This document shows, in pieces, positions 1 to 16,145 of a stretch of DNA of 64,000 nt. This stretch comes from Lacrimispora amygdalina (GTDB lineage: Bacteria > Bacillota > Clostridia > Lachnospirales > Lachnospiraceae): positions 1 through 64,000 of the forward strand of contig NZ_QOHO01000031.1 of NCBI RefSeq assembly GCF_003432035.1, in the 5' to 3' direction. A program made the position numbers and the translations under genes. The notes under the pieces are model-generated. The model was not told where the DNA came from and ran no database searches. It saw only the letters and a program-made list of their open reading frames with translations. Each line of letters opens with the position of its first letter. Position 1 is the first letter of the stretch.

Positions 1-4
1 ATCC

Positions 5-38
5 GTCACGTGGGCTCGGAAATTTGTATAAGAGACAG
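5..38 (+). other. Illumina Nextera (Tn5) adapter remnant at contig edge
   Basis: Positions 5-38 align without gaps to the 34-base Nextera read-2 transposase adapter; only positions 8, 21 and 24 differ. The last 19 bases correspond to the Tn5 mosaic end (AGATGTGTATAAGAGACAG) with two differences. This is sequencing-library DNA rather than genome, so position 1 is a contig end and true genomic sequence starts near 39. Just after it, one frame reads an open 3-prime tail ending at a TAA at 67-69, possibly the end of a truncated gene, but it is too short to call. Confidence 0.9.
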
Positions 39-142
39 GATTTATGATTACTATAGAGATTATAAATAACTTAATATATTGATGAAGATTATCAAAGAGT
101 CCGTAGCCGATGCTGGTCTCTATTTCATAAGAAAAATCTAGT

Positions 143-528
143 ATGTTTATAATATATTTTTTACTTTTGTGTTCTTTTTTATTATTTTTAATATCATGTA
201 TTACGAATATAAAATCTCATCAATATGATGGAAGATCAGAAGGAAAGATAGTTTCCCTAAATAAAGTTTGTCATAATGGGAGAAATAATAAGGTTTATAT
301 ATATTATCCAGTTTATGAATATACTGTGGCTGGAATCACATATCAGGAAGAATTTCCCTTTGGTGACGAATGTCCTAATAATTTAGTAATAGGAGAAGAA
401 ACAATTATAAAATATGATAAAAAAATCCAGAAAAATTTATTGTTTCTGGAAAAGAGAATGTTTATTTAGGTCAAGCTATTTTCGGCTTGATTATATCAAT
501 TATTATACTTGTAGTAATAATTAATTGA
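143..528 (+). pseudogene. DUF3592-like small membrane protein, frameshifted
   Basis: The ATG at 143 opens a 108-residue frame: an N-terminal membrane segment (about residues 2-20), then a small soluble domain with PVYEYTVAGITYQ, which resembles DUF3592 proteins. That frame stops at 469. If the run of seven A at 419-425 had one more A, the protein would continue as KKNPEKFIVSGKENVY and a second hydrophobic segment ending at the TGA 526-528, giving 128 residues with the two-helix layout expected of the family. The lesion is therefore probably a one-base loss in poly-A, either real or a sequencing error at the contig end. The ribosome binding site is weak. DUF3592 is an assignment by pattern only. 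Confidence 0.55.
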
Positions 529-784
529 ATTAGTATGGGTATATGAAAACTTAAAACAACCGGAGCAAGAGGTTAAGTGTTATGCCAGAGCATACTATCT
601 TTGGCAGCACGAAGGATTTAATGATCCATTTGGTTGGTATAAAGACATGTTAAAATATGCGTACAAAAATCTTGTGCAAACAGATTTGGATTATGAAAAT
701 TAGTCTCAGGAACAGCTGAAACAGGCAGAGGCAGATTTAAAAGAAAAATGGGGAGAAGTGAGGAGTGACGAAAATGGACAATGA
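521..784 (+). pseudogene. Remnant of a soluble helical protein, start missing and internal stop
   Basis: One frame is open from 521 to the TAG at 701-703 and continues in the same frame to a TGA at 782-784. The translation is charged and aromatic, with stretches such as YARAYYLWQHEGFNDPFGWY, and after the TAG a helix-forming EQLKQAEADLKEKWGEV. There is no usable start codon after the stop at 518-520, so the 5-prime end is missing or in another frame. It ends over the start of the DUF2628 gene, as upstream partners in an operon often do. I do not recognise the family. Confidence 0.45.
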
Positions 785-1328
785 TGAAAACCAGATAGGC
801 GGATATTCAATATCAGAGATAAGAGAATATCTGGAAAAAAATCAAGAAGAGTACTTAAATAGATTCAGACAAATTGATAGAAAGAAAAAATTTAATGGAG
901 CCGCTGCATTTTTTGGTCCATTATGGTTTGCTTATCGAATGATGTGGATAGAAGGATTCTTATTATGGCTCATTTCTTCTGTAATAACATTATTTGCTTC
1001 GTTTATTATTTATATATTAATTTTAGCAAATATAATATATACCAAAGAATCTGCCGGACTATTGTTATTTTTACTTTGGATAGTAGAATTTCTGATAATA
1101 GGTAAGATGGCTGATTCCATCTACTGGTGGAAGATAAAAAAGAGAATTGATGCTACTCATTGGGAAGATGGAAAAAAACGGAGTATAATTCAAAAGCTGG
1201 CGAATGCTGTAGAATGTAAAGGGGCTTCTCTATGGAGTGCAATTGTTTTTTCCTTTTTATTGCGATTTGGAGACGTCGTCGTAGGAGCAATTGGAATTGC
1301 AATGGCTACTGTAATGGCCCAAATCTAG
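774..1328 (+). CDS. DUF2628 family membrane protein
   Basis: A 184-residue protein from the ATG at 774, which has AGGAG eight bases upstream (761-765); a GTG at 765 in the same frame is an alternative. The N-terminal 50 residues are hydrophilic. They are followed by the pattern FNGAAAFFGPLWFAYRMMW, the hallmark of DUF2628, where a folded hydrophobic turn precedes transmembrane helices. About three further hydrophobic segments follow (near residues 60-85, 95-112 and 150-180). Function is unknown for the family. It is the only intact gene in the first 1.85 kb, which is clearly more AT-rich than the rest of the window. The neighbours are broken, so any operon role is lost or masked. Confidence 0.7.
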   Translation: MDNDENQIGGYSISEIREYLEKNQEEYLNRFRQIDRKKKFNGAAAFFGPLWFAYRMMWIEGFLLWLISSVITLFASFIIYILILANIIYTKESAGLLLFLLWIVEFLIIGKMADSIYWWKIKKRIDATHWEDGKKRSIIQKLANAVECKGASLWSAIVFSFLLRFGDVVVGAIGIAMATVMAQI

Positions 1329-1359
1329 ACTGGCTTATTAAAAGGAGGAATCTTAATAA

Positions 1360-1850
1360 TTGATTAATGAAGTAAATTTGAAAAATAAAGTTATAAATGA
1401 GCTGCAGACTATTGCAGATAATCGTTATCTTTGGTATACAGAGAAGATAGAAAAAAAATTGTTTTATATATCGCTGAAATTACTGATAGTCTGAAAATTG
1501 TACTTAATAATATTTACAGTCAATACATAAAATTACAAGATACCGGCGAGGTAGGGATACTGGAATGGGTTTATTTGTCCTTTCTACATACAAGTTTTTT
1601 AGATCATTCGCCATGTTATAAAATTGATTTTTACGATACAAGAGACTGTATTTCAGAAATTGAATGCTTCAAAAGTGGATTATCAGCCTGCATAGACATT
1701 AAAAACGCATTATGGTATAATAAGGAAATCCAATTGGTCCTTTCTGGTAATTTTTCCGGATGATCCGGAGAATACTACCTGAATATACAGACCCTTCAGG
1801 AGAACTGGATCCGGCTGAATTCCTACATGCCGTTACCAGAAAAATATTGA
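1360..1850 (+). pseudogene. Hypothetical protein broken by frameshift and stop
   Basis: A TTG at 1360 lies 11 bases after AGGAGG (1343-1348) and starts an open frame that shifts at the run of eight A at 1451-1458. With nine A the product continues in the frame that is open to 1760 (IVLYIAEITDSLKIVLNNIY, then EWVYLSFLHTSFLDHSP). That frame meets a TGA at 1761-1763 but is open again to a TGA at 1848-1850 with plausible protein sequence ([16 protein letters not shown]). So at least two lesions separate this from an intact gene of about 160 residues. The family is not recognised. It ends 17 bases before pepT. It could be a decayed gene or a badly sequenced intact one. Confidence 0.45.
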
Positions 1851-1867
1851 AAAAGAGGCGATTAACA

Positions 1868-3094
1868 ATGTCAGAAGTGATCAATCATTTTTTAAAATAT
1901 GTATCTTATGATACCCAGTCAAAGTATGAGGTTGACGCTGTTCCAAGTACTTCAAAGCAGCGGATACTTGCAGAAGAACTGGTGAAAGAACTTCAGGCCA
2001 TGAAGGCTGCAGATGTAAGAATTGACGAGCACAGCTATGTGTATGCTACCATTCCGGCCACCATGGACAAAGCAGTCCCGGTACTGGGATTTATCGCTCA
2101 CATGGATACCTCTCCAGCCTACTCAGGAGCTGGTGTAAAGCCGCAGATCGTAACGAATTACGATGGTAAGGATATTCTAATGAATGCGGATACAGGACTT
2201 ACCATGAGCCCGGAAGATTTTCCGGATTTATTAAAATATGTCGGGCAGGATATTATAACTACAGATGGGACAACCCTGTTAGGTGCAGATGATAAGGCCG
2301 GTGTGGCTGAGATCATGACTATGGCGGAATACTTACTTACCCATCCGAAGATTCCTCATGGAACCATCCGAATCGGATTTACACCGGATGAAGAAGTGGG
2401 CAGAGGGGCAGATTTCTTTGATGTGAAAGGATTTGCCGCTGATGTTGCTTATACCGTGGACGGCGGTGGGTTAGGAGAGCTGGAGTACGAAAATTTCAAT
2501 GCTGCTTCTGCCAGAGTTTTAATCCACGGATCCAGCATCCACCCCGGTTCTTCCAAAGGAAGAATGAGAAATGCGCTTTTAATGGGTATGGAATTTCATA
2601 ACATGCTTCCGGCAGCTGAGAACCCTATGTATACGGAAGGATACGAAGGATTCTACCACCTGGATTCCATGATTGGAAGCGTTGAGGAAGCCAGACTTGA
2701 TTATATTATCCGTGATCACAGCAAGAAGAAGTTTGAAGAAAAGAAAGAATTTATGACCCGTGTGGCAGATTATTTAAACCAGAGATATCAAAGCGGGACA
2801 GTAGAACTGATCTTAAAAGACAGCTATTTTAACATGAAAGAAAAGATTGAACCCCATATGTACCTGATCGATATTGCAAAGACGGCGATGGAAGATCTGG
2901 GAATTGAACCGTTAGTTACTCCGATCAGAGGCGGTACAGACGGAGCACGCTTATCCTATGAGGGGCTTCCCTGTCCAAACCTTTGCACCGGCGGATATAA
3001 TTATCATGGAAAATTTGAATTTATCCCAGTTCAGTCCATGGAAAAGGTTGTGAAACTGCTTCTTAAAATTGTTGAAAAGTTTGCTGAAAAGTAA
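1868..3094 (+). CDS. pepT: Peptidase T (tripeptide aminopeptidase)
   Basis: A 408-residue M20 metallopeptidase that removes N-terminal residues from tripeptides in the cytoplasm. Zinc-site motifs appear in order: HMDTSPAY (about residues 78-85), [12 protein letters not shown] (about 138-149), [11 protein letters not shown] (about 173-183, with the catalytic Glu pair), TVDGGG (about 196-201), and a C-terminal NYHGKFEF histidine. Length matches the family. The frame is open upstream to 1760, but the start at 1868 is supported by the family N-terminus ([13 protein letters not shown]) and by AGAGG nine bases upstream. It is a single gene followed by a strong hairpin terminator, convergent with sufU. 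Confidence 0.95.
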
Positions 3095-3186: not shown

Positions 3187-3627
3187 TTATTTTGCGGTTT
3201 CCGGTTCTTCAAGTATTCCCATTAAAGTATGCCAGGGAAGGACAGCACATTTAACCCTGCCCGGCATATGGGAGATTCCCTTCAGAGCAATCGCATCCTC
3301 AAGTGAATCCAGCTGCTCCTCATCTGATATTTCTCCTTTTATCATCCCCAGAAAGGTATTAAGCAGATTCTGAGCCTCTTCAACCGGTTTTCCAAGAATG
3401 AGATCAATCATCAGAGACGCGGAAGCCTGGGAAATGGCACAGCCTTCTCCGGTAAATCCGGCATCTTCAATGATTCCGTCCTTGACCCGCAGCTCCAGAA
3501 CAATGTCATCGCCGCAGCTGGGATTGACTCCTTCCAGACTGGCTGTCGCCTCTGATACCTTGTGACGGTTTTGACTGGAACGGCTGTTTTCCACAATAAT
3601 CTGATTGTATAAAGCATTAAGCTCCAT
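3187..3627 (-). CDS. sufU: SUF scaffold / sulfur-relay protein SufU
   Basis: A 146-residue IscU-fold protein that takes persulfide sulfur from SufS and passes it on to the SufBCD scaffold. The SufU hallmarks are present: NPSCGD with Cys38 and Asp40, GEGCAIS with Cys63, and VKCAVLPW with Cys127. Together these form the zinc/transfer site. The roughly 20-residue insertion between the second and third cysteines that separates SufU from IscU is also there. It is the last gene of the operon and overlaps sufS by 11 bases. AAGGAGG lies upstream of the ATG. Confidence 0.95.
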   Translation of the reverse strand: MELNALYNQIIVENSRSSQNRHKVSEATASLEGVNPSCGDDIVLELRVKDGIIEDAGFTGEGCAISQASASLMIDLILGKPVEEAQNLLNTFLGMIKGEISDEEQLDSLEDAIALKGISHMPGRVKCAVLPWHTLMGILEEPETAK

Positions 3628-4843
3628 AACCCATCCACCTCCTTACCTGTTTTAAGCTGTTTAAAAATACCGAAATATCTTCCTCTGTATTGTAGATGGC
3701 AATGCTTGCCCGGACACAGGAGCCAATTCCCAGATATTCCATTAATGGCTGGGCGCAGTGATGACCGGCACGGACTGCGATTCCTTCTGAATCCAGAATG
3801 GTTGCAGTATCGTGGGGATGAACCCCTTCCACATTAAAGGAGATAACCCCAAAACGGTCACGGCTGTCTGTACTGCCGTATATGGTGACATAGGGCAGAG
3901 CATTCAGTCCTTTCAGCGCCTGGTCCATCAGAGCGTGCTCATGATTACGGATCGTCTCCCAGCCTATGGAAGTAATATATTCCATGGCTGCCGCCAGGCC
4001 TGCTTCACCGCCTACATTTCTCGTTCCTGCCTCGAACCGGCGGGGGACTTCTGCATAGGAAGCGGTCTGTTCATGGACGCTTGCAATCATATCGCCTCCA
4101 CTTAAAAACGGGGGCATTTTTTCAAGCAGCTCTTTTTTGCCATATAAAACACCAATGCCCATGGGAGCATACATCTTGTGTCCGGAAAATGCTGCAAAAT
4201 CTACTCCCAGGTCTTTGACGTCAAGAGGCATGTGAGACACACTCTGGGCGCAGTCCAGAACCACTGCAGCGCCGCATAAACGGGCGCGTCTCACAATGGA
4301 TTTTACCGGCGCTTCCGTTCCAAGCACATTTGATACGTGGGCAATGGCAATCAGCCTTGTGCGCGGGTTTATTTTCTGATCCAGTTCTTCTTCTGTAATC
4401 CGCCCGTCAGGTCCCGGATAAAGATAAACAAGTTTAGAACCTGTCAGCTTTGCGACTCTCTGCCAGGGAACCAGATTACTATGGTGTTCCGCTACGGAGA
4501 TAAGTATTTCGTCCCCTGCTTTTAAGAACTCCATACCGTAGCTGTAAGCGATCAGATTAAGAGCTTCTGTAGCATTCTGGGTGAAAATAATTTCCTCCGG
4601 GCCGGCATTTACAAAGCGGGCCGCAGTCTGCCTGGCGTTTTCATGAATATCCGTGGAGCGGACGCCCAGGGTGTAAACGCCCCTGTGTGGATTGGCATTA
4701 TCCATACGGTAATAATCATCCACCGCCTTTAAAACGGACAGAGGCTTGAATGAAGTCGCTGCGTTATCTAAGTATATCAGTCTCTTTCCATTTTCCGGAA
4801 CAGCGAGAATGGGAAACTGATCACGAATTGGTTTCATGTTCAT
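3617..4843 (-). CDS. sufS: Cysteine desulfurase SufS
   Basis: A class V aminotransferase-fold, PLP-dependent enzyme that takes sulfur from L-cysteine, giving alanine and an enzyme persulfide for Fe-S assembly. Visible motifs are the PLP lysine in FSGHKMYAPMG, the YLDNAATSFKP substrate loop near the N-terminus, and the active-site cysteine in RAGHHCAQP. The frame extends to 4864, but AGGAGG (4848-4853) sits just upstream of ATGs at 4843 (4-base spacing) and 4837 (10-base spacing), so one of these is the start. From 4843 it is 408 residues, normal for SufS. It overlaps sufD by 23 bases. Confidence 0.93.
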   Translation of the reverse strand: MNMKPIRDQFPILAVPENGKRLIYLDNAATSFKPLSVLKAVDDYYRMDNANPHRGVYTLGVRSTDIHENARQTAARFVNAGPEEIIFTQNATEALNLIAYSYGMEFLKAGDEILISVAEHHSNLVPWQRVAKLTGSKLVYLYPGPDGRITEEELDQKINPRTRLIAIAHVSNVLGTEAPVKSIVRRARLCGAAVVLDCAQSVSHMPLDVKDLGVDFAAFSGHKMYAPMGIGVLYGKKELLEKMPPFLSGGDMIASVHEQTASYAEVPRRFEAGTRNVGGEAGLAAAMEYITSIGWETIRNHEHALMDQALKGLNALPYVTIYGSTDSRDRFGVISFNVEGVHPHDTATILDSEGIAVRAGHHCAQPLMEYLGIGSCVRASIAIYNTEEDISVFLNSLKQVRRWMGYGA

Positions 4844-5906
4844 CGAGCCTCCTTTCAATGACATTCAGAATCTCCATGCGCAGATCATCCGGAGTTATTT
4901 TATGAAGAACAGGCATAAAGCGGGCTTCTACCAGCATGCGCTTTGCCTCCATCAGGCTAAGCCCTCTGGAGCACAGATAGTATAGCTGTTTTTCATCAAA
5001 CTGTCCTAAGCTGGCTGCATGCTGTCCTTCCACAGCTTCTTCTCCGCACAGGATTAGGGGAACAGTCCTGTTTCTGGCGCTGGGGCTTAGCAGAAGTACG
5101 GTTTCATTTTCGTGCCCCACAGAGTGTGCGGATCCTGCCTTAAAGTCTATGGTTCCTCTCAAAATCTTGCTGCTGGAGCCTGCAAGAACTCCGGCCGTAT
5201 GCATTTCGCTTACCGTTTCTCTGCCGGTGTGGCGGGCAATGTCATTGAAATCAAAAATCTGTTCCTTATCAGTAAAGTATGCAGTATCCTGTTGGTAGCC
5301 GCCTCCCTGCCCCTCCAGATGAGCCAGAGAACCGCATGCCGCTGTTTTTCCTCCCAGGACGGCCCGAATGAGTTCTACCCTGGCACCTTTTCCAATGCGA
5401 GCACCTACGGCATCAAAGCTCTGGCTGTTTCGTCCAAGCAGCTGGACAGAAACCAGACGGACAACGGAATTTTCCTGCGCATCAATCTGAGTTAAGCTTC
5501 CAAGAACGCCGTCTTTTGCGTCCCCGCGATTAACCTGAATTACCGTGAGATTACTTCCTGGCTTTGCGTTTATGGCATAATGGGCTCTGATAACCGGATG
5601 AGTAAGGTCCAGAGTCTGGGTGATAATAACAGGTTCACTGGGAGATCCTTCTCCCAATAAGTAGCAGGTTTTGTCTGCACCGTTCATGATAAACTCATTC
5701 ATCCATTCACCCATCCCGCTTGGAATTGCAGCAGTTTCTTTTGGAAGATCCTCCATCAGGCTGATTCCGTGAGGAAGGTCGCCGTTATAAGGAAGGTGGC
5801 CGCCCTGCGAATATTCCCTGTCCGAAGGCAGCGCTTTTTTATCCAGCCAGTTTACCCCTGTCCGGTTCCAGGTAGGAACCGGGAGACGGTTGATTTGTGT
5901 ATTCAT
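4821..5906 (-). CDS. sufD: Fe-S cluster assembly scaffold subunit SufD
   Basis: A 361-residue SufB/SufD-family beta-helix protein that pairs with SufB and is powered by SufC in building Fe-S clusters. It is shorter than the SufB encoded next to it, as is usual. The C-terminal half carries the family pattern seen in HTAGVLAGSSSKILRGTIDF and GEEAVEGQHAASLGQFDEKQ, ending in the YLCSRGLSLMEAKRMLVEA helix shared with SufB. It starts 16 bases after sufB and overlaps sufS. The N-terminal 60 residues, rich in Pro and Asp, are typical for the subunit. Confidence 0.92.
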   Translation of the reverse strand: MNTQINRLPVPTWNRTGVNWLDKKALPSDREYSQGGHLPYNGDLPHGISLMEDLPKETAAIPSGMGEWMNEFIMNGADKTCYLLGEGSPSEPVIITQTLDLTHPVIRAHYAINAKPGSNLTVIQVNRGDAKDGVLGSLTQIDAQENSVVRLVSVQLLGRNSQSFDAVGARIGKGARVELIRAVLGGKTAACGSLAHLEGQGGGYQQDTAYFTDKEQIFDFNDIARHTGRETVSEMHTAGVLAGSSSKILRGTIDFKAGSAHSVGHENETVLLLSPSARNRTVPLILCGEEAVEGQHAASLGQFDEKQLYYLCSRGLSLMEAKRMLVEARFMPVLHKITPDDLRMEILNVIERRLDEHETNS

Positions 5907-5922
5907 ATTTGTGTTCCTCCTT

Positions 5923-7341
5923 TCAGCCGATGCTTCCCTTCATTTCAAGATGAATGAGATTGTTCATTTCCACCGCATATTCTAACGGCAGTTCCTTGGC
6001 AATGGGTTCTGCAAACCCGCCTACGATTAAGGCCCGTGCATCATCCTCGGACAGACCGCGGCTCATTAAGTAGAAGATTGCGGATTCACTGATTCTGCCG
6101 ATTTTTGCCTCATGGCCGATATCTGCCTGATTGCAGGAGATATCCATCACCGGTATGGTGTCGGAACGGGAAATACTGTCAAGCATCAGTGATTCACAGG
6201 AAACGGCTGATTTGCTTCCTTCTGCCTTTTCCGTAACGGTTACCAGGCTTCGAAACGTGGAATTGCCTCCATCCCTTGATATGGATTTCGTAGAAATGTG
6301 AGAGGTGGTATCCGGTGCGGCATGAAGTACCTTTGCGCCGGTATCCAGGTTCTGGCCTTCTCCGGCAAATGTGATGCCTGTAAACTCCATACGTGCCTTT
6401 TTCCCTTTTAAAATGCTCATGGGGTAAAGATAGGAGATATGAGATCCGAACGATCCGGAGATCCATTCCACGGTTCCTCCTTCCTCTACCGAAGCGCGTT
6501 TTGTATTCAAATTGTACATATTCTTTGACCAGTTTTCGATGGTGGAATAGCGGAGCCTTGCATTTTTACCCACATACAGCTCCACACAGCCGGCGTGAAG
6601 GTTTGCAACGTAGTATCTGGGAGCAGAGCAGCCTTCTATGAAATGAAGATAGGCACCTTCCTCCACGATGATCAGCGTATGCTCAAACTGGCCCGCACCT
6701 GGTGCATTCAGCCGGAAATAGGACTGAAGAGGAATTTCAACCGAAACCCCTGCCGGCACATAAACAAAAGAACCTCCGGACCAGACTGCTCCGTGAAGAG
6801 CCGCAAACTTGTGGTCGGACGGAGGAACCAGTTTCATAAAATGCTTTCGTATCATTTCACTGTAAGGGCCGGTAAGAGCGCTCTCTATATCCGTATAGAC
6901 CACGCCTTTTGACGCAACCTCTGCACGGACATTGTGATAAACCACTTCTGAGTCGTACTGTGCCCCCACACCTGCCAGGGATTTCTGCTCCGCTTTGGGA
7001 ATACCAAGACGTTCAAAAGTCTGTTTGATATCGTCTGGGACATCGGACCATTTCGCTTTCATGGTTGATTTCGGTCGGACATATGTAACAATCTGATCCA
7101 TATTCAGCTCATCAAGAGAAGGTCCCCAGGAGGGAAGCGGTATCTCATTATACAATTTCAATGATTTAAGGCGGAACAGACGCATCCATTCCGGTTCATT
7201 TTTTTCCTTAGATATCTGGTTTACAATCTCAGGGGTAATGCCGGAGTCCGTAAGGAAGGCCGGGTCCAGCCTGTCTTTCACATCATAAATGGTGCGGTCA
7301 GCCTGGTCGACTCTTGTTTTTTCCTGTTTAAAGTCTTTCAT
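5923..7341 (-). CDS. sufB: Fe-S cluster assembly scaffold subunit SufB
   Basis: A 472-residue SufB, the core scaffold on which nascent Fe-S clusters form. Family landmarks are GVVYTDIESAL, the beta-helix core with SGGSFVYVPAGVSVEIPLQ and ENWSKNMYNLNTKRA, and the C-terminal SCNQADIGHEAKIGRISE followed by YLMSRGLSEDDARALIVGGF. It overlaps sufC by 14 bases, so translation is probably coupled. Length and order fit Gram-positive SUF systems. Confidence 0.95.
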   Translation of the reverse strand: MKDFKQEKTRVDQADRTIYDVKDRLDPAFLTDSGITPEIVNQISKEKNEPEWMRLFRLKSLKLYNEIPLPSWGPSLDELNMDQIVTYVRPKSTMKAKWSDVPDDIKQTFERLGIPKAEQKSLAGVGAQYDSEVVYHNVRAEVASKGVVYTDIESALTGPYSEMIRKHFMKLVPPSDHKFAALHGAVWSGGSFVYVPAGVSVEIPLQSYFRLNAPGAGQFEHTLIIVEEGAYLHFIEGCSAPRYYVANLHAGCVELYVGKNARLRYSTIENWSKNMYNLNTKRASVEEGGTVEWISGSFGSHISYLYPMSILKGKKARMEFTGITFAGEGQNLDTGAKVLHAAPDTTSHISTKSISRDGGNSTFRSLVTVTEKAEGSKSAVSCESLMLDSISRSDTIPVMDISCNQADIGHEAKIGRISESAIFYLMSRGLSEDDARALIVGGFAEPIAKELPLEYAVEMNNLIHLEMKGSIG

Positions 7342-8092
7342 AGAAGCCAGCCTCCTTTCCCAGAACGCCGAATCCTTGCTGCGTAATTTTTGAGATCAGT
7401 TCCCGGCCGCCTGTATATGCAATTTTGCCTCCTTCCAGTACATGTACCACATCCACATCCAGACCTTCCAGAATACTTGCATTATGTGTAATGATAAAAA
7501 GTCCGTTTTTACGGTTTTTAAAAGCACGGATTCCCTTTGTAACGGTACGGACAGCATCTACATCAAGACCGGAATCCGTCTCGTCTAAAAGAGCCAGCTT
7601 TGGCTGAAGCATAAGAAGCTGGAGGATTTCCGTTTTCTTTTTCTCTCCACCGGAAAAGCCAACATTTAAGTACCGTTCCGCATAGCTGGGGTCCATATCC
7701 AAAGCTTTCATCTGTTCTTTCAGTTCCTTTTTAAACTGCAGTATCTTTGGAGGACGTTTTTCCAGGGATCCTTTGGCTGTGCGGAGAAAGTCTTCAAGGG
7801 TGACGCCCGGAATCTCCTCCGGAGCCTGGAAGGAGAGAAAGACACCTGCTCTGGCTCTTTCGTCCGCTTTCATTTCTGTTATATCTTTCCCATCCAAAAG
7901 AATCTGCCCGCTTTCAATCTGGTACCGGGGATCCCCCATAATGGCGGATACGAGAGTGGATTTTCCTGTTCCGTTTGGTCCCATGAGGACATGAAGCTCA
8001 CCTGAACCTATGGTAAGATTAATGCCGTTTAAAATTATTTTATCCTCCACAGATACAGTGAGATCTTTAATTTCCAGTAATGCATGACTCAT
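7328..8092 (-). CDS. sufC: SUF ATPase SufC
   Basis: A 254-residue ABC-type ATPase, soluble, that drives shape changes of the SufBD scaffold. Walker A is GPNGTGKST, the signature is FSGGEKKKTEILQ (the SufC form), and Walker B is LALLDETDSGLDVDA. The frame runs to a TTG at 8101, but the ATG at 8092 has AGGAGG nine bases upstream and gives the family N-terminus MSHALLEIKDLTV. It is the first gene of the suf operon. Its promoter region, with dyad elements, lies at 8131-8197. Confidence 0.95.
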   Translation of the reverse strand: MSHALLEIKDLTVSVEDKIILNGINLTIGSGELHVLMGPNGTGKSTLVSAIMGDPRYQIESGQILLDGKDITEMKADERARAGVFLSFQAPEEIPGVTLEDFLRTAKGSLEKRPPKILQFKKELKEQMKALDMDPSYAERYLNVGFSGGEKKKTEILQLLMLQPKLALLDETDSGLDVDAVRTVTKGIRAFKNRKNGLFIITHNASILEGLDVDVVHVLEGGKIAYTGGRELISKITQQGFGVLGKEAGFYERL

Positions 8093-8130
8093 ATATATCA
8101 ACCTCCTTTATTCCCCGAATGGGAATCTAA

Positions 8131-8615: not shown

Positions 8616-9722
8616 ATGAATGATATTGAATGTATGCGTCTGGCTTTGCAGCTTGCCAAAAAAGGTTGTGGTTTTGTAAATCCAAATCCCATGGTTGGTG
8701 CTGTACTTCTAAAGGAGGGCAGGGTAATTGGCACAGGATACCACGAACGGTATGGTGCTCCCCATGCAGAAGTAAACGCACTTGCAGGCTGTGAAGAATC
8801 CCCGGATGGAGCGACTCTTTATGTGACTCTGGAACCCTGTTGCCACTATGGGAAGACACCTCCCTGCACAGAAGCCATCTTAAAAGCAGGTATAAAACGA
8901 GTAGTGGTGGGAAGTTCAGACCCAAACCCGCTGGTCAAAGGACAGGGCATCAAAATCCTGCGGGAAAAAGGAGTTGAAGTCACGGAAGGAATACTAAAGT
9001 CGGAATGTGACAGGCTCAATGAAGTATTTTTCCATTTTATCCAGACAGGAAGGCCCTATGTTGTCATGAAATACGCCATGACAATGGATGGAAAAACAGC
9101 AGCATATACAGGTGACTCCAAATGGATTACCGGTGAAACTGCAAGGGAAAACGTCCATAAAGACCGGCTCCGTTACAGCGCTGTGATGGTTGGGATTGGT
9201 ACCGTTTTTGCAGATGATCCGCTGCTTACCTGCCGGACAGAGGGAGGGCGTAACCCGCTTCGCATCATCTGCGACACAACCCTGCGGCTTCCCCTTACCT
9301 CCCAGATCGTGGCCACTGCAAATGAGGTTCCGACTCTAATTGCAACGTCCTGCAGGGATCAGGAGACACAGCAGCCCTATTTAAAAGCCGGCTGCAGGAT
9401 TCTCCCGCTTGAACAGGCGGATGGACATTTGGATTTGTATGAACTCATGACAAAGCTTGGCGCAGAGAAAATTGACAGCATATTACTGGAAGGCGGCGGT
9501 ATTCTTAACTGGTCGGCACTGCAGGCAGGAATTGTAAACAGAGTGCAGACATACATTGCGCCAAAGCTTTTTGGGGGATCAGGCGGGAAAACTCCGGTTG
9601 CAGGACCTGGCGTCCCTCACCCTGAGGATGGTTTTTTTCTCACAAACATAGAAGTGAAACATTTGGGAGAAGATATACTAATTGAAAGTGAGGTGAAACC
9701 TTATGTTCACAGGGATTATTGA
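8616..9722 (+). CDS. ribD: Bifunctional deaminase/reductase RibD
   Basis: A 368-residue enzyme for the second and third steps of riboflavin synthesis: deamination of the pyrimidine produced by GTP cyclohydrolase II, then NADPH-dependent reduction of the ribose side chain. The N-terminal zinc deaminase domain shows HAEVNAL (His and Glu) and PCCHYGKTPPC (zinc cysteines). The C-terminal reductase domain (from about residue 145) begins VMKYAMTMDGKTA. It is the first gene after the FMN riboswitch, with a weak AAAGGCGG site before the ATG. It overlaps ribE by 20 bases. Confidence 0.96.
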   Translation: MNDIECMRLALQLAKKGCGFVNPNPMVGAVLLKEGRVIGTGYHERYGAPHAEVNALAGCEESPDGATLYVTLEPCCHYGKTPPCTEAILKAGIKRVVVGSSDPNPLVKGQGIKILREKGVEVTEGILKSECDRLNEVFFHFIQTGRPYVVMKYAMTMDGKTAAYTGDSKWITGETARENVHKDRLRYSAVMVGIGTVFADDPLLTCRTEGGRNPLRIICDTTLRLPLTSQIVATANEVPTLIATSCRDQETQQPYLKAGCRILPLEQADGHLDLYELMTKLGAEKIDSILLEGGGILNWSALQAGIVNRVQTYIAPKLFGGSGGKTPVAGPGVPHPEDGFFLTNIEVKHLGEDILIESEVKPYVHRDY

Positions 9723-10350
9723 AGAAATAGGCATACTGAAGGAGGTAAAGAAAGGAGCGCAGTCCGCTTTGCTGACTATACAGGGCAGTGTGATTTTTGA
9801 TGATCTTGGAATCGGGGACAGTGTAGCGGTAAATGGCGTATGCTTAACGGCTTCCGGGCTTTCTTCCCATACCTTCCGGGCAGATGTGATGCATGAGACC
9901 TTAAACCGTTCCGGTCTTGGAAAGCTGCATCCCGGAGATTTTGTAAATCTGGAACGTGCAATGGCGGCAGACGGACGATTTGGCGGGCACATTGTCTCAG
10001 GACATATTGATGGCATTGGGACCATTACGTCCGTTGTAAGGGATGACAATGCCATCTGGTACACCATTGCCGCTGAGGACAGGATACTCCGTTATATTGT
10101 GGAGAAAGGCTCGATTGCAGTGGATGGCATCAGTCTGACGGTAGCTTCGGTTAACAATACAGAGTTTCGCATATCTGCTATACCCCATACAGTAAAATCC
10201 ACCATTCTGTCATACAAAAAAACAGGTGATATGGTGAATCTGGAGAATGACCTGATGGGGAAATACGTGGAAAGGTTTTTATCAGCAACCCAGGAAGAAC
10301 AGAAGCCACGCGGTATCACAAGAGAATTCTTAACAAAATCTGGCTATTAG
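9703..10350 (+). CDS. ribE: Riboflavin synthase alpha subunit
   Basis: A 215-residue protein that dismutates two 6,7-dimethyl-8-ribityllumazines into riboflavin and the pyrimidine precursor. It has the two tandem lumazine-binding repeats of the family: the first begins [10 protein letters not shown] and has VNGVCLTA, the second has [11 protein letters not shown] and VDGISLTV. Length is normal. It overlaps ribD and lies 10 bases before ribBA, so the genes are clearly cotranscribed under the FMN riboswitch. Confidence 0.96.
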
Positions 10351-10360
10351 GAGGAGTAAG

Positions 10361-11560
10361 ATGTTTGAGTACAATACCATAGAAGAAGCGCTTGAATCGC
10401 TTCAACAGGGAAAAATCATTCTTGTAACAGACGATGAGGGACGGGAAAATGAAGGTGATTTCATCTGTGCCGCCCAGTTTGCTACAACCGAAAATATTAA
10501 CTTTATGGCGACGCATGGAAAAGGGCTGATCTGCATGCCCATGAATGAGGAGTTGTGCATGCGATTGGAATTACCACAGATGATTTCTGAAAACACAGAC
10601 AATCATTCTACTGCCTTTACCGTTTCCATCGATCATGTGGATACAACCACCGGAATCTCCGCAGCAGAGCGGTCAATAACTGCAATGAAATGCGTAGACG
10701 CCAATGCAAAGGCCGGGGATTTCCGCCGACCGGGACATATGTTCCCTCTTCTTGCAAAACGAAACGGAGTATTAGAGCGGGGAGGACATACGGAAGCCAC
10801 AGTGGATCTCATGCGTCTTGCAGGTCTGAAGGAATGCGGTCTTTGCTGCGAAATCATGGGAGAAGACGGGACCATGATGCGTACACCTGATCTGATAAAG
10901 CTGGCTGAAAAATGGAAGATTCCTTTCATTACCATCGCAGCTTTGAAGGAATACCGTAAAAAACACGACAGGCTGGTGGAACAGACCTCAATCTGTAATA
11001 TGCCCACAAAATTTGGAGATTTTAATGCCTTCTGCTTTGTTAACAAACTAAACGGAGAACATCATGTGGCTCTTGTCAAAGGCGAAATCGGTGACGGTAA
11101 GAATCTTTTGTGCCGTGTTCATTCAGAGTGCCTGACCGGGGATGCGTTCGGCTCCATGCGCTGCGACTGCGGACAGCAGCTTGCTGCCGCCATGACGCAG
11201 ATTGAACAGGAAGGAAGAGGAATTCTTCTATATATGCGTCAGGAGGGGCGCGGAATCGGTCTGGTTAACAAACTGCGTGCTTACGCACTCCAGGATAAAG
11301 GCATGGATACGCTGGAAGCCAACCTTGCTTTAGGCTTTGAAGGAGATCCCAGAGAGTATTACATCGGTGCTCAGATTCTCAGGGAATTAGGAGTAAAAAC
11401 CCTGCGCCTGCTCACCAATAATCCGGATAAGGTATATGGGCTGTCCGGCTTTGGTATGGAAATTATGGAACGGGTTCCCATACAGATTCCTGCCAATGAC
11501 CATGATCTGTTTTATTTAAAAACCAAACAGACAAAAATGGGGCACATTTTACATTATTAA
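10361..11560 (+). CDS. ribBA: Fused DHBP synthase / GTP cyclohydrolase II
   Basis: A 399-residue fusion that supplies both riboflavin precursors. The N-terminal half (about 1-200) is 3,4-dihydroxy-2-butanone-4-phosphate synthase with [11 protein letters not shown] (Mg ligand and substrate loop) and a RRPGHMFPL motif. The C-terminal half is GTP cyclohydrolase II with the zinc cysteines in [18 protein letters not shown] and the catalytic RQEGRGIGL. Both halves look catalytically complete. GGAGG lies upstream of the ATG. Confidence 0.97.
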
Positions 11561-11586
11561 TTATTAATCATAAAGGAGAATTCATA

Positions 11587-12054
11587 ATGAAAATATTTGA
11601 AGGAACACTGGTATCAAAGAATATCCGGATCGGCATTGTAGCCGCACGTTTCAATGAGTTTATAACATCAAAGCTTCTTGGCGGGGCATTGGATTGTTTA
11701 AAACGCCACGGTATCAGCGAGGAGGACATTGAAGTGGCCTGGGTGCCCGGAGCCTTTGAGATTCCGCTGATCGCTTCCAAGATGGCAGGCTGCGGCAAAT
11801 ATGATGCAGTAATCTGCCTTGGTGCGGTTATTCGGGGCAGCACCACACATTATGATTACGTCTGCAGCGAGGTGTCCAAGGGGATTGCCCATGTATCATT
11901 AAATAGCGGCATTCCCGTCATGTTTGGAGTCCTGACGACAGAAAATATTGAACAGGCAATTGAACGGGCAGGTACGAAAGCAGGTAACAAAGGGTTTGAC
12001 TGTGCAGCGGGAGCAATTGAAATGGTAAGTTTAATCCGCACAATTCAAGCTTAA
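11587..12054 (+). CDS. ribH: Lumazine synthase
   Basis: A 155-residue enzyme joining the ribityl-pyrimidine and the four-carbon phosphate into 6,7-dimethyl-8-ribityllumazine. Visible motifs are ARFNEFIT near the N-terminus, VPGAFEIPL, the catalytic-histidine loop [14 protein letters not shown], and [11 protein letters not shown]. It probably assembles into hollow shells like its homologues. AAAGGAG lies before the ATG. It is the last gene of the rib operon and is followed by a hairpin at 12068. Confidence 0.96.
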
Positions 12055-12122: not shown

Positions 12123-13130
12123 TTAATCAGCCAGCAGGTCAGGAGAAAGAGTATTTCCTGACCGTAACTCCTGGCGTGCGGTCTGGATGAGGGAATCCAT
12201 TTTCTCTAACTTTTCTAACAGCTGTTTTTCTTCTTCGCTTGTATAAATCACATGATTGATACCGCCGTTTTTAATGACAATCCGCTTGTCCGCCATTAAT
12301 GCCAGAAGGGGATCGTGGGTCGCCATTAAGACGATTTTATCTGATGTCACAAGAAGCTTTAACGCCTTTTTGCGGTCGATTCCGGCATTTTCGATTTCAT
12401 CAATAAGAACGATGGGAGAGGAACTTAATATTGCTGTATCTGCAATCATAAGCGCTCTGGACTGCCCGCCGCTTAAGCTGGTAACAGGAGTGGAGAGTTC
12501 AAATTTTTCTCCCGCTAAATCGTTGGCTGCGGCTATGATTCTGTCTATCACAGACTGGGGATCCTCAACCATGCGGCTTTCCGCATGCATCCGTAAAAAG
12601 TCCCGTACCGTTAAGTCCATAACAAAGTTCATGTTCTGGGAAAGCTGGGCGACCAGCTTGTTGTTTGAGGAAAAACGCCACTTCATATCAGGCACTTCGC
12701 CGTTGACCAGAATGCTCCGCCCGGTAGGAGTGTCATTCTGGGCCGTCCATTCAATATCTGCCAAAAGCCGGCTTTTTCCTGAACCGGTAGGTCCTACAAT
12801 GGATATAATCTGGGATGTCTCTACAGTCAGTTCCTTAAAACCTTCCATCGTTCCTGATTTATCGTGACCTGGTAAAATGGTCAGGGACTGCACCTTCCGG
12901 TCGTTCTCCATTCCTAAAAACTGACGCATCTGATCCAGATAGACAGGCAGGTCCGACAATAGCTTGGCTTTATCAATGGCCTGGTCTTCCAGTTCTTCCT
13001 CTGAAAAATGATTTAAATACTCCTCAAATGTCTGATCCTCAAATCCAGAGATAGTAAGCTTATTCTGTTCAAAATATGCGGCAGCAAAAGGATATTCCTC
13101 CAGCAGCTTTTTCATGCTAATATTTATCAT
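12123..13130 (-). CDS. Soluble ABC ATPase with N-terminal helical domain
   Basis: A 335-residue ABC ATPase. The first 70 or so residues form a separate helical domain (KKLLEEYPFAAAYFEQNKL and onward) that resembles DUF1858/ScdA-N domains. The ATPase core then has Walker A GPTGSGKSR, a Q-loop near VAQLSQNMNFVMD, signature SLSGGQSRALMIAD, Walker B PIVLIDEIENAGID and H-loop MATHDP, so it should hydrolyse ATP. It has no membrane segment and there is no permease beside it. It is third in a coupled operon and overlaps the GTPase gene by four bases. Its partner is more likely the GTPase/binding-protein pair than a transporter. Substrate unknown. Confidence 0.8.
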   Translation of the reverse strand: MINISMKKLLEEYPFAAAYFEQNKLTISGFEDQTFEEYLNHFSEEELEDQAIDKAKLLSDLPVYLDQMRQFLGMENDRKVQSLTILPGHDKSGTMEGFKELTVETSQIISIVGPTGSGKSRLLADIEWTAQNDTPTGRSILVNGEVPDMKWRFSSNNKLVAQLSQNMNFVMDLTVRDFLRMHAESRMVEDPQSVIDRIIAAANDLAGEKFELSTPVTSLSGGQSRALMIADTAILSSSPIVLIDEIENAGIDRKKALKLLVTSDKIVLMATHDPLLALMADKRIVIKNGGINHVIYTSEEEKQLLEKLEKMDSLIQTARQELRSGNTLSPDLLAD

Positions 13131-13828
13131 TTTTTATCACCGCCTAAATCAATTTTCTTCACATTACCCATCTGATACGCTTCTCCGATTCTTGTTTCAC
13201 CCAGACAATAGGAACATAATGCGGAGGGCATTGGGAAACGGAGCTGCATTCCCTGTACGGATTTAATACTTTGATTTTCATCATACAGAAGACTTGCAAG
13301 TTCATAGGTACCCTGTCCGGTGAGTCCGTTCACATGCATGGTAATGGCTCTGGGATTTACAGAGCTGACACAGGAAGCAAATACCTCCCGTTCTGCCTGG
13401 GAAACAATATCTCCCTTGGTAATCACCACCAAGTCGGCAGCCTTTAACATCGGGCCGATTTTTTTAGGAGTGTTGATACCGGATAAATTATCGATGACAC
13501 AGACTCCTTTTACTTCTTTTAAATAAGGGGAACAGCGGTTGCACAGACCTGCTGATTCCGTAATCAGCAGATCAAGCTTTTCTTCATTTCCCCAGTTAAC
13601 CACCTCTTCAATATTGGAAGCAAAGAAGTGATCCGGGCATAAGGCGCCGGATAAGCCCTTTTTCACAGGGATTCCCGCCTTTTCATAGGCAATGTCATCA
13701 TCGGTGTAAAGACAGTCAAACTTCACCACACCCACCTTTATGTTTTTCGCATGAAAGGATGAAATTGTTTTTAAAATTACTGATGTTTTACCGGAAGAGG
13801 GCGGGCCTGAAAATATAATCAGATTCAT
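13127..13828 (-). CDS. HypB/CobW-like P-loop GTPase
   Basis: A 233-residue SIMIBI-class GTPase. Walker A is GPPSSGKTS (residues 8-16), the switch/metal region is TESAGLCNRCSP with Cys96 and Cys99, and the G4-type base motif is TKGD (137-140). An extra cysteine pair, CSYC (205-208), lies near the C-terminus, with single cysteines at 39 and 64. HypB and CobW relatives load metals into enzymes, and the paired cysteines suggest a metal site, but the client is unknown. The gene overlaps both neighbours by four bases (ATGA junctions), implying stoichiometric synthesis of the three proteins. Confidence 0.75.
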   Translation of the reverse strand: MNLIIFSGPPSSGKTSVILKTISSFHAKNIKVGVVKFDCLYTDDDIAYEKAGIPVKKGLSGALCPDHFFASNIEEVVNWGNEEKLDLLITESAGLCNRCSPYLKEVKGVCVIDNLSGINTPKKIGPMLKAADLVVITKGDIVSQAEREVFASCVSSVNPRAITMHVNGLTGQGTYELASLLYDENQSIKSVQGMQLRFPMPSALCSYCLGETRIGEAYQMGNVKKIDLGGDKK

Positions 13829-15078
13829 AAGAACTCCTTTTGTGCAGCTGAAAAGAACTGCTTTTCTATTTTTTTGATTAATTCTCCAATATCATTGTTG
13901 TGAATAAAATCCCATCCAATCCACATAAATTTCTGGTCAGGTGTTAAGCCATTGTCCACCAGGGGATTGGTCGATGGGAATTTTCCGTTTGAGGAAAGAA
14001 TATCTCCAATCTCTTTTGAATATAAAAGATCAACAAAAGGTTTTACTTTCTCCTTATTCTTTGATTTAGCCAGAAGGAAAATCGGACTGATAATGGCTCC
14101 GTCTTTTGGCCATACCGGCCGCATGGGGCTTTTTTCATCTGTCATGCTGGCAAAGAAATAGGGGGCAACCGTAATAGCGGGAACCTTATTGCCATCTTTT
14201 AGCTTGTGGGATTTGATCATCTGAGCCGGATGCATGCTCTGTAAGAGAGCCTTACCCATCTTTTCGATTCCTTCTTCCCCATAAAAACGGTAGATGTGAA
14301 GTAAAAATGCATTAAACATATCCAGATCCTTCATGGGAAGGCTGATGCTGTTTTCAAATTCCGGTTTCATTAAGTCTGCCCAGCTCTCAGGCAAGGGGCG
14401 GTCCCCTAAAACGTTTGTATTAACCATGAAGACTGCAGGAACAATTCCGATGATGGCGTACTGGTTTTTGGGATCCTTCAGTGATATATTATCATTATCA
14501 AGATCAGGGTTTAACCGCTCCATCCCGGAAAGATCTTCGAATACGCCTGAATCCTGATAGCCGCCAATCATCTTTTTATCAAAGAACAAGTCAAAACCTG
14601 CAGAGAGATAAAGATCTGACAGACCGTCAGGGTCTCCGTCTGCCAGAATAACCCGGTCCTTTACATCATCAAGACCCAGGTTTGCTGATTTTAAATGATA
14701 CTCCACCTCATACCCAAGTGAACTTTGATTTTCCTCAAGCCAGGATTCAAACTTTTCCAGAAGAGGAATGCGGATGGGACAGGGCAGTACACCCTCGATG
14801 CGGATATCCCCTTTATTTTCCGATTGTGCAGGAGTGAGTCCGTCTGTGAGGCTGGGAGCCTTCCGACCTATCACTTCCTCCAGCTTCTTAATAAAAAGTT
14901 CCTGGTTTACCTTTCTCATTGATAATGCTGTTTCTAATGAGATGGTTTTTCCAAGAGTTCTGCGCATAACGGGATTGCTTAAATTTTCAAAACCATTGGC
15001 AATAAAAACTTCAATGGTTTCCGGATAGGTTTCTGTGATATGAAAGATCGTATCTGAAGCTTTAAAATAATTTGACAT
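13825..15078 (-). CDS. DUF1858-like domain fused to a periplasmic-binding fold, no signal peptide
   Basis: A 417-residue protein. Residues 1-70 (SDTIFHITETYPETIEVFIA and onward) look like a DUF1858-type helical domain. From about 95 onward it resembles family 1/6 extracellular binding proteins such as iron or thiamine binders, with LPCPIRIPLLEKF, PLPESWADLMKPEF and a late IISPIFLLAKSKNK. There is no signal peptide or lipobox, so it should stay in the cytoplasm, which is unusual for this fold. It is first in the operon with the GTPase and ATPase. Databases would probably label it an ABC substrate-binding protein, but location and partners argue against ordinary import. Function unknown. Confidence 0.7.
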   Translation of the reverse strand: MSNYFKASDTIFHITETYPETIEVFIANGFENLSNPVMRRTLGKTISLETALSMRKVNQELFIKKLEEVIGRKAPSLTDGLTPAQSENKGDIRIEGVLPCPIRIPLLEKFESWLEENQSSLGYEVEYHLKSANLGLDDVKDRVILADGDPDGLSDLYLSAGFDLFFDKKMIGGYQDSGVFEDLSGMERLNPDLDNDNISLKDPKNQYAIIGIVPAVFMVNTNVLGDRPLPESWADLMKPEFENSISLPMKDLDMFNAFLLHIYRFYGEEGIEKMGKALLQSMHPAQMIKSHKLKDGNKVPAITVAPYFFASMTDEKSPMRPVWPKDGAIISPIFLLAKSKNKEKVKPFVDLLYSKEIGDILSSNGKFPSTNPLVDNGLTPDQKFMWIGWDFIHNNDIGELIKKIEKQFFSAAQKEFL

Positions 15079-15157
15079 GATTATTCCTTTCTCTATGTTA
15101 ATTGTAAGTTGGTTTCTGAAAGTATGTTTATCATATCATAGATTCTTTGTTTTGTTT

Positions 15158-15235
15158 GTTGTAAAAACAACTAATCTCAAATACTTTTGATATTATTTCC
15201 TGTTTAGGCACTATCTTTTTCATCAATGAGATAGT
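15158..15235. promoter_or_regulatory. Two dyads between divergent trio and EFR1 genes
   Basis: GTTGT-AAAA-ACAAC (15158-15171) and ACTATCT...AGATAGT (15210-15216 with 15229-15235) lie in the 200-base divergent spacer. They are placed to control one or both transcripts. No confident sigma-A promoter was identified, and the regulator is unknown. Confidence 0.35.
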
Positions 15236-15278
15236 ATGATGAAATCATATAAATTTGATTCGCAGAGGGGGAATTACA

Positions 15279-16145
15279 TTGTTAAAACCAAAAAAAATCA
15301 CTCTGGCTTATTTTTCAGGAACTGGTTGTACAAAAGAAGTCTGTCTGTGTTTCGCACAAGAATTAACAAAGAAAGGACTGGAAAGCAAAACCATCAATCT
15401 GGAAAGTCATGATCCGGAGAAATTAAAACAGCCCGATCTCCTGGTAATATTTTCACCCGTATATGCCTTCCGGCTGGCCTCCATTACCGAAAAATGGGTC
15501 AAAGGCCTTCCGAAATCCAATCGGACAATGGTTGCGGTCGTTCCTGTGTCCGGAGGGGGAGATATCTCACCCAATACAGCCTGTACCATCGCCTGCAGGC
15601 GAATATTAAAGAAAAAGGGATATCATGTGATCTATGAACGAATGATCGTAATGCCGTCTAATTTCGGTGTGGATGCAGGAAGGGAAATTAACCTGCAATT
15701 ATTACACCGATTACCGGAAAAAACAAAAGAAATGATCGAAGACATACTCACTGGAGAACATCATTTTCTGCTGGCTAAATCCAGGGACCGTTTTCTTGCT
15801 ATGCTGGGAAAAGGAGAACATCTGGGGGCAGGATTATTCGGCGCTTCCATTCAGCCATCTGCTAAATGCACCCACTGCGGGCTATGTTCACAAAAATGCC
15901 CCGCCTGCAACATCAAAATGAAGCGGGGAATGCCCAGATTCGGCTTCCGTTGTATCTGGTGTTTAAGATGCATTTATGCCTGTCCGGTTCATGCTCTGAA
16001 ACCCCGAATTTTATCCTCTGTTGTTTTGAAGGATGGTTTTCATTTGCAGGAATTAAAAAAACAGGATTATAAAAATTTTGATCCGGATCAGACAAACTTT
16101 AATCAGAATCGAGCCTGGAAGGGCGTCAGTGAATACTTAAAATAG
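15279..16145 (+). CDS. EFR1-type flavodoxin/ferredoxin fusion protein
   Basis: A 288-residue electron-transfer protein. The N-terminal flavodoxin-like domain begins ITLAYFSGTGCTKEV (phosphate loop of FMN) and has VFSPVYAFR. The C-terminal part has two [4Fe-4S] ferredoxin motifs, CTHCGLCSQKCPAC and CIWCLRCIYACPVHA. The frame opens at a TTG at 15255, but the TTG at 15279 has AGAGGGGGA six bases upstream and gives the usual N-terminus. It is cytoplasmic, with no partner gene in the same direction. It lies between the trio and the ethanolamine operon, so a redox role for either is possible but unproven. Confidence 0.82.
   Translation: MLKPKKITLAYFSGTGCTKEVCLCFAQELTKKGLESKTINLESHDPEKLKQPDLLVIFSPVYAFRLASITEKWVKGLPKSNRTMVAVVPVSGGGDISPNTACTIACRRILKKKGYHVIYERMIVMPSNFGVDAGREINLQLLHRLPEKTKEMIEDILTGEHHFLLAKSRDRFLAMLGKGEHLGAGLFGASIQPSAKCTHCGLCSQKCPACNIKMKRGMPRFGFRCIWCLRCIYACPVHALKPRILSSVVLKDGFHLQELKKQDYKNFDPDQTNFNQNRAWKGVSEYLK

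Follow-up and report, generated by a model that had tools for sequence, protein, structure and literature searches.

A soluble gene trio linked to the hybrid cluster protein and to an HcpR-type operator in anaerobic bacteria

Results

A conserved trio of soluble proteins

A 64,000-nucleotide stretch of the Lacrimispora amygdalina genome (contig NZ_QOHO01000031.1, positions 1 to 64,000; hereafter the window) encodes, on the minus strand between positions 15078 and 12123, a binding-fold protein, a GTPase, and an ATP-binding cassette (ABC) ATPase, together referred to here as the trio. The conservation of the trio, the solubility of its products, and its link to the regulator HcpR and to the hybrid cluster protein (Hcp) are well supported. 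In the reading we propose, which has about an even chance of being correct, nitrosative stress induces the trio, and its soluble products work as a machine that supplies iron, or a different metal, to iron centres that are newly made or have been damaged. Metal handling is likely because the GTPase is of the HypB/UreG type with an invariant Cys-Pro-Asp-His (CPDH) motif and further invariant cysteines, and because the binding protein has a fold like that of ferric-binding proteins. An initial annotation of the window had suggested an intracellular machine for a cofactor or metal; its picture of soluble proteins with a likely role in metal handling stands, now with conservation added, and the clients it put forward are not supported.

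Open reading frame (ORF) calls place a four-base overlap at each junction, as first described. A scan of genome contigs with the GTPase returned 429 relatives, from which 80 loci were kept. All three genes are recognisable in 78 of these loci (a few, e.g. L009 and L054, hold a broken gene), and in 78 of the 78 loci with a full trio they share a strand, with the binding-protein gene first, followed by those for the GTPase and the ATPase, so that the neighbourhood co-occurrence proposed initially as a check holds across several lineages. Carriers include the anaerobes Peptostreptococcus, Peptoniphilus, Tissierella, and Lachnoanaerobaculum. In loci from Tissierella and Peptostreptococcus, as well as Pectinatus and loci labelled Fusobacteria, the GTPase is still 77–84% identical to that of the window and the binding protein roughly 47–59%; the GTPase is unusually constrained.

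Association with the hybrid cluster protein

Neighbouring genes were clustered in the 62 loci outside the Lacrimispora group (L003–L020). Of these, 30 encode Hcp, 28 encode a small zinc-ribbon-like protein, and nine encode a CRP-type regulator. Where at least 3 kb of downstream sequence was available outside the Lacrimispora group, hcp lay within 3 kb downstream of the trio in 27 of 46 loci, with the zinc-ribbon gene between the two in some lineages and the regulator in others. The zinc-ribbon-like family, whose genes follow the trio and in most cases precede hcp (L053, 3557–3799, and 27 other loci), comprises proteins of ~80 residues with extra conserved Cys; an assignment as HypA was rejected, the resemblance being sub-threshold (E 0.002). 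These recurrent partners, among them HcpR/FNR-type regulators, and the upstream operator described below had escaped the initial annotation.

The association extends to genome content. Among 293 Clostridia genomes, Hcp was detected in all 12 with a close trio GTPase and in 139 of the 281 others (p 0.0004, uncorrected for kinship), and an Hcp match was also present in nine of nine Clostridia genomes with only distant GTPase modules. Hcp likewise occurs in 28 of the 30 genomes behind chosen trio loci, which are partly the same genomes as the set of 12; the two without it belong to Fusobacteria, were assembled from metagenomes, and may be incomplete. In a tree of Hcp sequences, the trio-associated members were clustered, requiring 14 changes against a shuffled mean of 22.5, with none of 500 shuffles as low. 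Carbon monoxide dehydrogenase (CODH), a relative of Hcp, served as a comparison for co-occurrence and was considered as a client by analogy with nickel-inserting GTPases; it was rejected, since its co-occurrence was at background (3/12 vs. 61/281).

An HcpR-type operator upstream of the trio

The HcpR2 motif GTAACnnnnGTTAC was derived upstream of hcp by Rodionov et al. 2005 (PMC1274295). We counted all perfect 5-4-5 palindromes within the 250-base stretch that precedes the binding-protein gene, the motif having been seen before the count was made. The half-sites GTAAC (39 loci) and GTTGT (19 loci, that of the window among them) gave the two commonest palindromes, for both of which shuffling predicted a count of 0, and the next commonest reached 5. 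When the stretch was widened slightly, an operator was present in 58 of 75 loci, either GTAACnnnnGTTAC (39) or GTTGTnnnnACAAC (19, consisting of 16 loci of the Lacrimispora group plus L055, L062, and L070). Within the 1.31 megabases of loci, 39 of the 65 GTAAC sites are at the trio and 24 at hcp (assigned by eye); of the other two, one adjoins a split trio gene and one is without assignment. Of the 22 GTTGT sites, 19 lie at the trio.

The spacing to the putative promoter is also fixed. In both operator groups, TATAAT-like boxes begin most often at an offset of 36 from the start of the operator (20/20 and 22/39), as for the likely −10 box in the window (Table 1). Class II activators are centred at −41.5, and this fixed distance, which sets the operator centre at −41.5, suggests activation. 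The trio has in common with the HcpR regulon (hcp, frdX; PMC1274295) an operator that it shares with hcp, the activator position, and the type of regulator; it differs in that the Lacrimispora group, L055, L062, and L070 use GTTGTnnnnACAAC instead. The recognition helix of the CRP-type regulators encoded in other loci reads SREL in nine of ten and FREL in one, and six of these regulator loci (L029, L040, L042, L052, L057, and L068) carry a perfect GTAAC site; the regulator in L011, a locus lacking a perfect site, has SHEL, and that in the window's own genome SNEL. In L184 (G297:C13), from a Fusobacteriales genome in which Hcp gave no match, the operator separates the trio from a divergent CRP/FNR-type gene.

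Genome-wide scans placed the same operators elsewhere. In seven genomes scanned with GTAACnnnnGTTAC, a site was found upstream of the trio in all seven; the other sites listed lie within ORFs or have no gene start near, apart from those at hcp described in the Discussion and one match in G301 without a locus. In the window's own genome, one GTTGTnnnnACAAC site is at the trio, two precede the hcp ORF by 118 and 235 bases, and one is between an HcpR-like regulator gene and a divergent operon, while the remaining five lie within ORFs or lack a clear target. Since the trio and hcp are unlinked in this genome, sites at both indicate that the operator is common to the two. This genome thus encodes an HcpR-like regulator whose gene is itself next to a matching site, and in the same-genus genome G189 the trio and hcp again share the operator by position (8 sites vs. 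5 for the reversed control). The divergent operon, which stands behind the operator of the trio, encodes a cupin-like protein, an orphan N-terminal domain of Hcp (Prismane, 220 residues), a stand-alone DUF1858 protein of the hybrid-cluster-associated family TIGR03980, an unknown protein of 203 residues, and a hemerythrin.

Cytosolic location without an importer

The initial annotation had noted the absence of a signal peptide and of a permease, and both observations extend to the relatives. In a hydropathy scan, used in place of a dedicated predictor, a hydrophobic N-terminus was seen in one of 77 binding proteins (L037), whose ORF looks over-extended. No conserved permease was found: a gene with several transmembrane segments occurs among the first two joined genes in five of 78 loci, and these are of varied kinds. 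A single transmembrane-like stretch was scored in 23 of the 77 binding proteins, at residues 200–259 and starting in a strand of the window's structure model, and in five of 77 ATPases. Of the features of an ABC importer, the ATPase motifs are present, and an exported or lipid-anchored binding protein and a permease in the operon are absent. The findings that would have spoken against an intracellular machine (a conserved permease, a signal peptide in relatives, or a lack of co-occurrence) were thus looked for and not found, in support of the view that the trio works inside the cell and is not an importer.

Domain organization of the three proteins

Each single part of the trio belongs to a known fold. 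The GTPase, first read as HypB/CobW-like, matches cobW (PF02492, 2e-11), and its structure model (predicted local distance difference test score of 91.3) has a SIMIBI fold nearest to HypB and UreG; families were ranked by Foldseek in this comparison with PDB folds. It falls below the cut-offs of the curated HypB (TIGR00073, 56.2 of 121.2 bits) and UreG (TIGR00101, 27.8 of 204.2 bits) models. All 45 GTPases compared, down to 41% identity, retain Cys64-Pro-Asp-His67, Cys96, Cys99, Cys110, Cys205, and Cys208 without change. The two cysteine pairs (Cys96/99 and Cys205/208) had been recognised initially, and are present in 81 of 81 aligned GTPases including that of the window; the invariant CPDH motif had been overlooked. 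By alignment with HypB and UreG, Cys64 corresponds to the CP of the CPH motif of UreG, and CPDH is also at the place of the CH motif of HypB. The fold, P-loop, and position of the Cys/His motif are those of the nickel-insertion GTPases. The C-terminal CxxC and further invariant cysteines are additional, and in place of hydrogenase or urease genes the GTPase is recurrently accompanied by a binding fold, an ABC ATPase, and Hcp.

The binding-fold protein combines an N-terminal DUF1858 domain, whose presence the Pfam match (Table 1) bears out, with an SBP_bac_6 domain (PF13343, 8e-76). Its Cys100 is invariant and is found directly behind the first strand of the FbpA-like domain, near the first-strand ligand position of FbpA. 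Compared with the ferric-binding proteins FbpA, FutA, and SfuA, it has no signal peptide and no permease, and adds both DUF1858 and Cys100. A DUF1858-type N-terminal domain is shared with RIC/ScdA/YtfE and with DUF1858 proteins of nitric oxide regulons, whereas, unlike redox-type DUF1858, that of the trio lacks a CxxC and is fused to a binding fold. A DUF1858 gene is listed with the strongly changed genes of a Bradyrhizobium nnrR mutant (PMC6710368).

The ATPase (ABC_tran, 3e-15) holds Walker A, LSGGQ, and Walker B/DE motifs behind a helical-looking N-terminal extension. The initial annotation had seen a DUF1858-like domain here as well. Pfam detected none in the window protein or in N-terminal pieces of six relatives, and a profile comparison of the N-terminus with DUF1858 gave a probability of 59% (at most 0.43% in six control comparisons), which leaves a faint resemblance. 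SufC is likewise a soluble ABC ATPase and, like that of the trio, works without a permease. No SufC model was among the 25 best NCBIfam matches listed for the trio, and an apparent SUF operon stands apart from it. This SUF-type iron-sulfur assembly operon, identified by eye, is at 3187–8101 of the window and thus not far from the trio, with riboflavin genes (8616–12054) in between.

Across the operator from the trio, the window encodes an EFR1-family flavodoxin-ferredoxin (Table 1). EFR1 and a nearby B12 enzyme for ethanolamine had been proposed as clients; we reject both, as the EFR1 and ethanolamine genes flank the trio in only eight of 80 loci, all from close relatives of the window. EFR1 may be a member of the regulon in the clade of the window only.

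Table 1 Coordinates of the trio, its motifs and regulatory sites, and related features (window positions unless another locus is given)
Feature	Position	Strand	Characteristics
Binding-fold protein ORF	15078-13825	-	417 aa: DUF1858, linker, FbpA-like binding domain
DUF1858 domain of binding-fold protein	14893..15057	-	Residues 8-62; PF08984 2e-16; 2fi0 match 4e-8
GTPase ORF	13828-13127	-	233 aa, HypB/UreG-like
Cys64-Pro-Asp-His67 of GTPase	13628..13639	-	Place of UreG CPH; 45/45
Cys96-x-x-Cys99 of GTPase	13532..13543	-	Invariant, 45/45
Cys205-x-x-Cys208 of GTPase, near C-terminus	13205..13216	-	Invariant, 45/45
ABC ATPase ORF	13130-12123	-	335 aa
HcpR-type operator GTTGTnnnnACAAC	15158..15171	.	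Sole copy in window; ~80 bases upstream of trio
TATGAT, likely -10 box of trio promoter	15130..15135	-	Offset +36 from operator start; operator centre -41.5
EFR1-family flavodoxin-ferredoxin	15255..16145	+	NF038196; divergent across trio operator
Divergent operon by HcpR-like regulator	L114 (G000:C100:13000-18000), 1-2350		Cupin-like, orphan Hcp domain, DUF1858, unknown, hemerythrin

Distant modules

More distant GTPases (41–63% identical) are encoded with an ATPase and, in most of the few loci examined, a binding-fold gene. In L099 (9112–17553), a set of GTPase, ATPase, and binding fold is followed by NifH, nitrogenase component 1, and FecB-, FecCD-, and ATPase-like genes (the last three by eye), and may be a module for a nitrogenase-like enzyme. 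A GTPase-ATPase pair in L090 adjoins a DUF364/DUF4213 heavy-metal chelation gene (Pfam), near a ThiC-family radical SAM gene and a CobT-like gene (the latter by eye). The pair in L094 is also next to a DUF364/DUF4213 gene, and both pairs have methyltransferase-like genes beside them (all by eye). In L095, L098, and L100, modules neighbour a CRP-type gene together with, by eye, portions of an importer resembling tauA/nmt1. These neighbours fit a general role in handling metals or metal cofactors.

Discussion

In the mechanism we infer, nitric oxide would be the signal: higher levels of it, or of related species, would cause a CRP/FNR regulator of the HcpR type to bind the operator and activate the trio, as it would hcp. 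The binding-fold protein would then capture a cytosolic metal, most likely iron in free, chelated, or thiol- or nitrosyl-bound form, by way of the FbpA-like cleft and its Cys100. From there the metal would pass to the GTPase, which has a HypB/UreG-type metal site and two CxxC pairs and would deliver it upon GTP hydrolysis, and the ABC ATPase would either drive opening of the carrier or remodel the client protein. Transfer would be directed towards iron centres that are newly made or damaged by nitric oxide, Hcp among them. Hcp is the best-supported candidate client, and likely not the only one.

Several observations weigh against this proposal. Perfect operator sites are lacking in 17 of the 75 loci, and genome-wide counts are close to those of controls: GTTGTnnnnACAAC occurs at nine places in the window's own genome vs. 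six for the reversed pattern, and in five other trio genomes the reversed pattern is at least as frequent as the operator. Because the control is about as frequent, only the positions of the sites carry weight. These positions are uneven at hcp. In six genomes where trio and hcp are apart, a perfect hcp site is present in G000, G189, and G306 and absent in G295, G301, and G310. Of the 151 Hcp-bearing Clostridia genomes, 139 have no close trio GTPase, and 130 not even a distant one, which means that Hcp does not in general require the trio.

The same points bear on the idea that the trio is a maturase reserved for Hcp and its Fe-S-O hybrid cluster, with the carrier bringing iron and the GTPase and ATPase inserting it, in the manner of HypB, UreG, and the nickel-insertion ATPase CooC for nickel enzymes. 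The adjacency of trio and hcp in several lineages, their common operator, the intervening zinc-ribbon protein with its sub-threshold resemblance to HypA, and the presence of Hcp in the 12/12 and 28/30 trio genomes would all be expected of such a maturase. We nevertheless consider it unlikely. Apart from the many Hcp genomes without a close trio GTPase, two Fusobacteria genomes carry the trio and operator with no Hcp match, so that Hcp may not be the sole client. A search for a trio-specific Hcp clade found none (14 changes needed, with bootstrap support unsettled), and the E. coli control genome scored for Hcp and, to our knowledge, has no such trio. Finally, only two of the seven genomes scanned with GTAACnnnnGTTAC (G293 and G306) have a site upstream of hcp; with a site always at the trio, the regulator seems to have the trio as a primary target independently of hcp.

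The ligand itself may also be other than a metal. At the sequence level, the PDB matches of the binding domain include the polyamine binder PotD, a 2-aminoethylphosphonate binder, and P5PA, besides an iron binder, which speaks against our proposal to the extent that a polyamine, a phosphonate, or a molecule like pyridoxal phosphate, made or needed under nitrosative stress, could be what the trio handles. We regard this as improbable. An unusual importer, with a permease encoded elsewhere and the binding protein at the inner face of the membrane, would account for the binding-protein fold and ABC ATPase motifs, but is very hard to reconcile with the near-uniform lack of hydrophobic N-termini, the rarity and variety of neighbouring multi-transmembrane genes, and the paralogous modules that adjoin apparently complete importers (by eye) with an ATPase of their own.

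The function of the trio seems not to have been described to date. No description of it was recognised in the open-access full-text literature, and no trio of this kind is named in the portion of the HcpR account of PMC1274295 considered here, although its supplementary tables or RegPrecise may hold an unnamed listing. The trio corresponds neither to an ABC importer nor to the curated HypB and UreG models. More tentatively, the trio may belong to a wider and so far undescribed group of soluble machines, each composed of a cytosolic binding fold, a HypB-like GTPase, and an ABC ATPase and each given over to the loading or repair of a different complex metal centre, with the Hcp branch here and others in L099 and L090.

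The proposal bears on how iron centres are rebuilt under nitric oxide in anaerobes and on how the hybrid cluster of Hcp is assembled. If it is correct, the union of a ferric-binding fold with a HypB-type GTPase in a conserved, permease-free, co-regulated trio would amount to a new type of machine for metal centres, and the operator of the trio and its co-occurrence with Hcp open the way to a direct genetic test.

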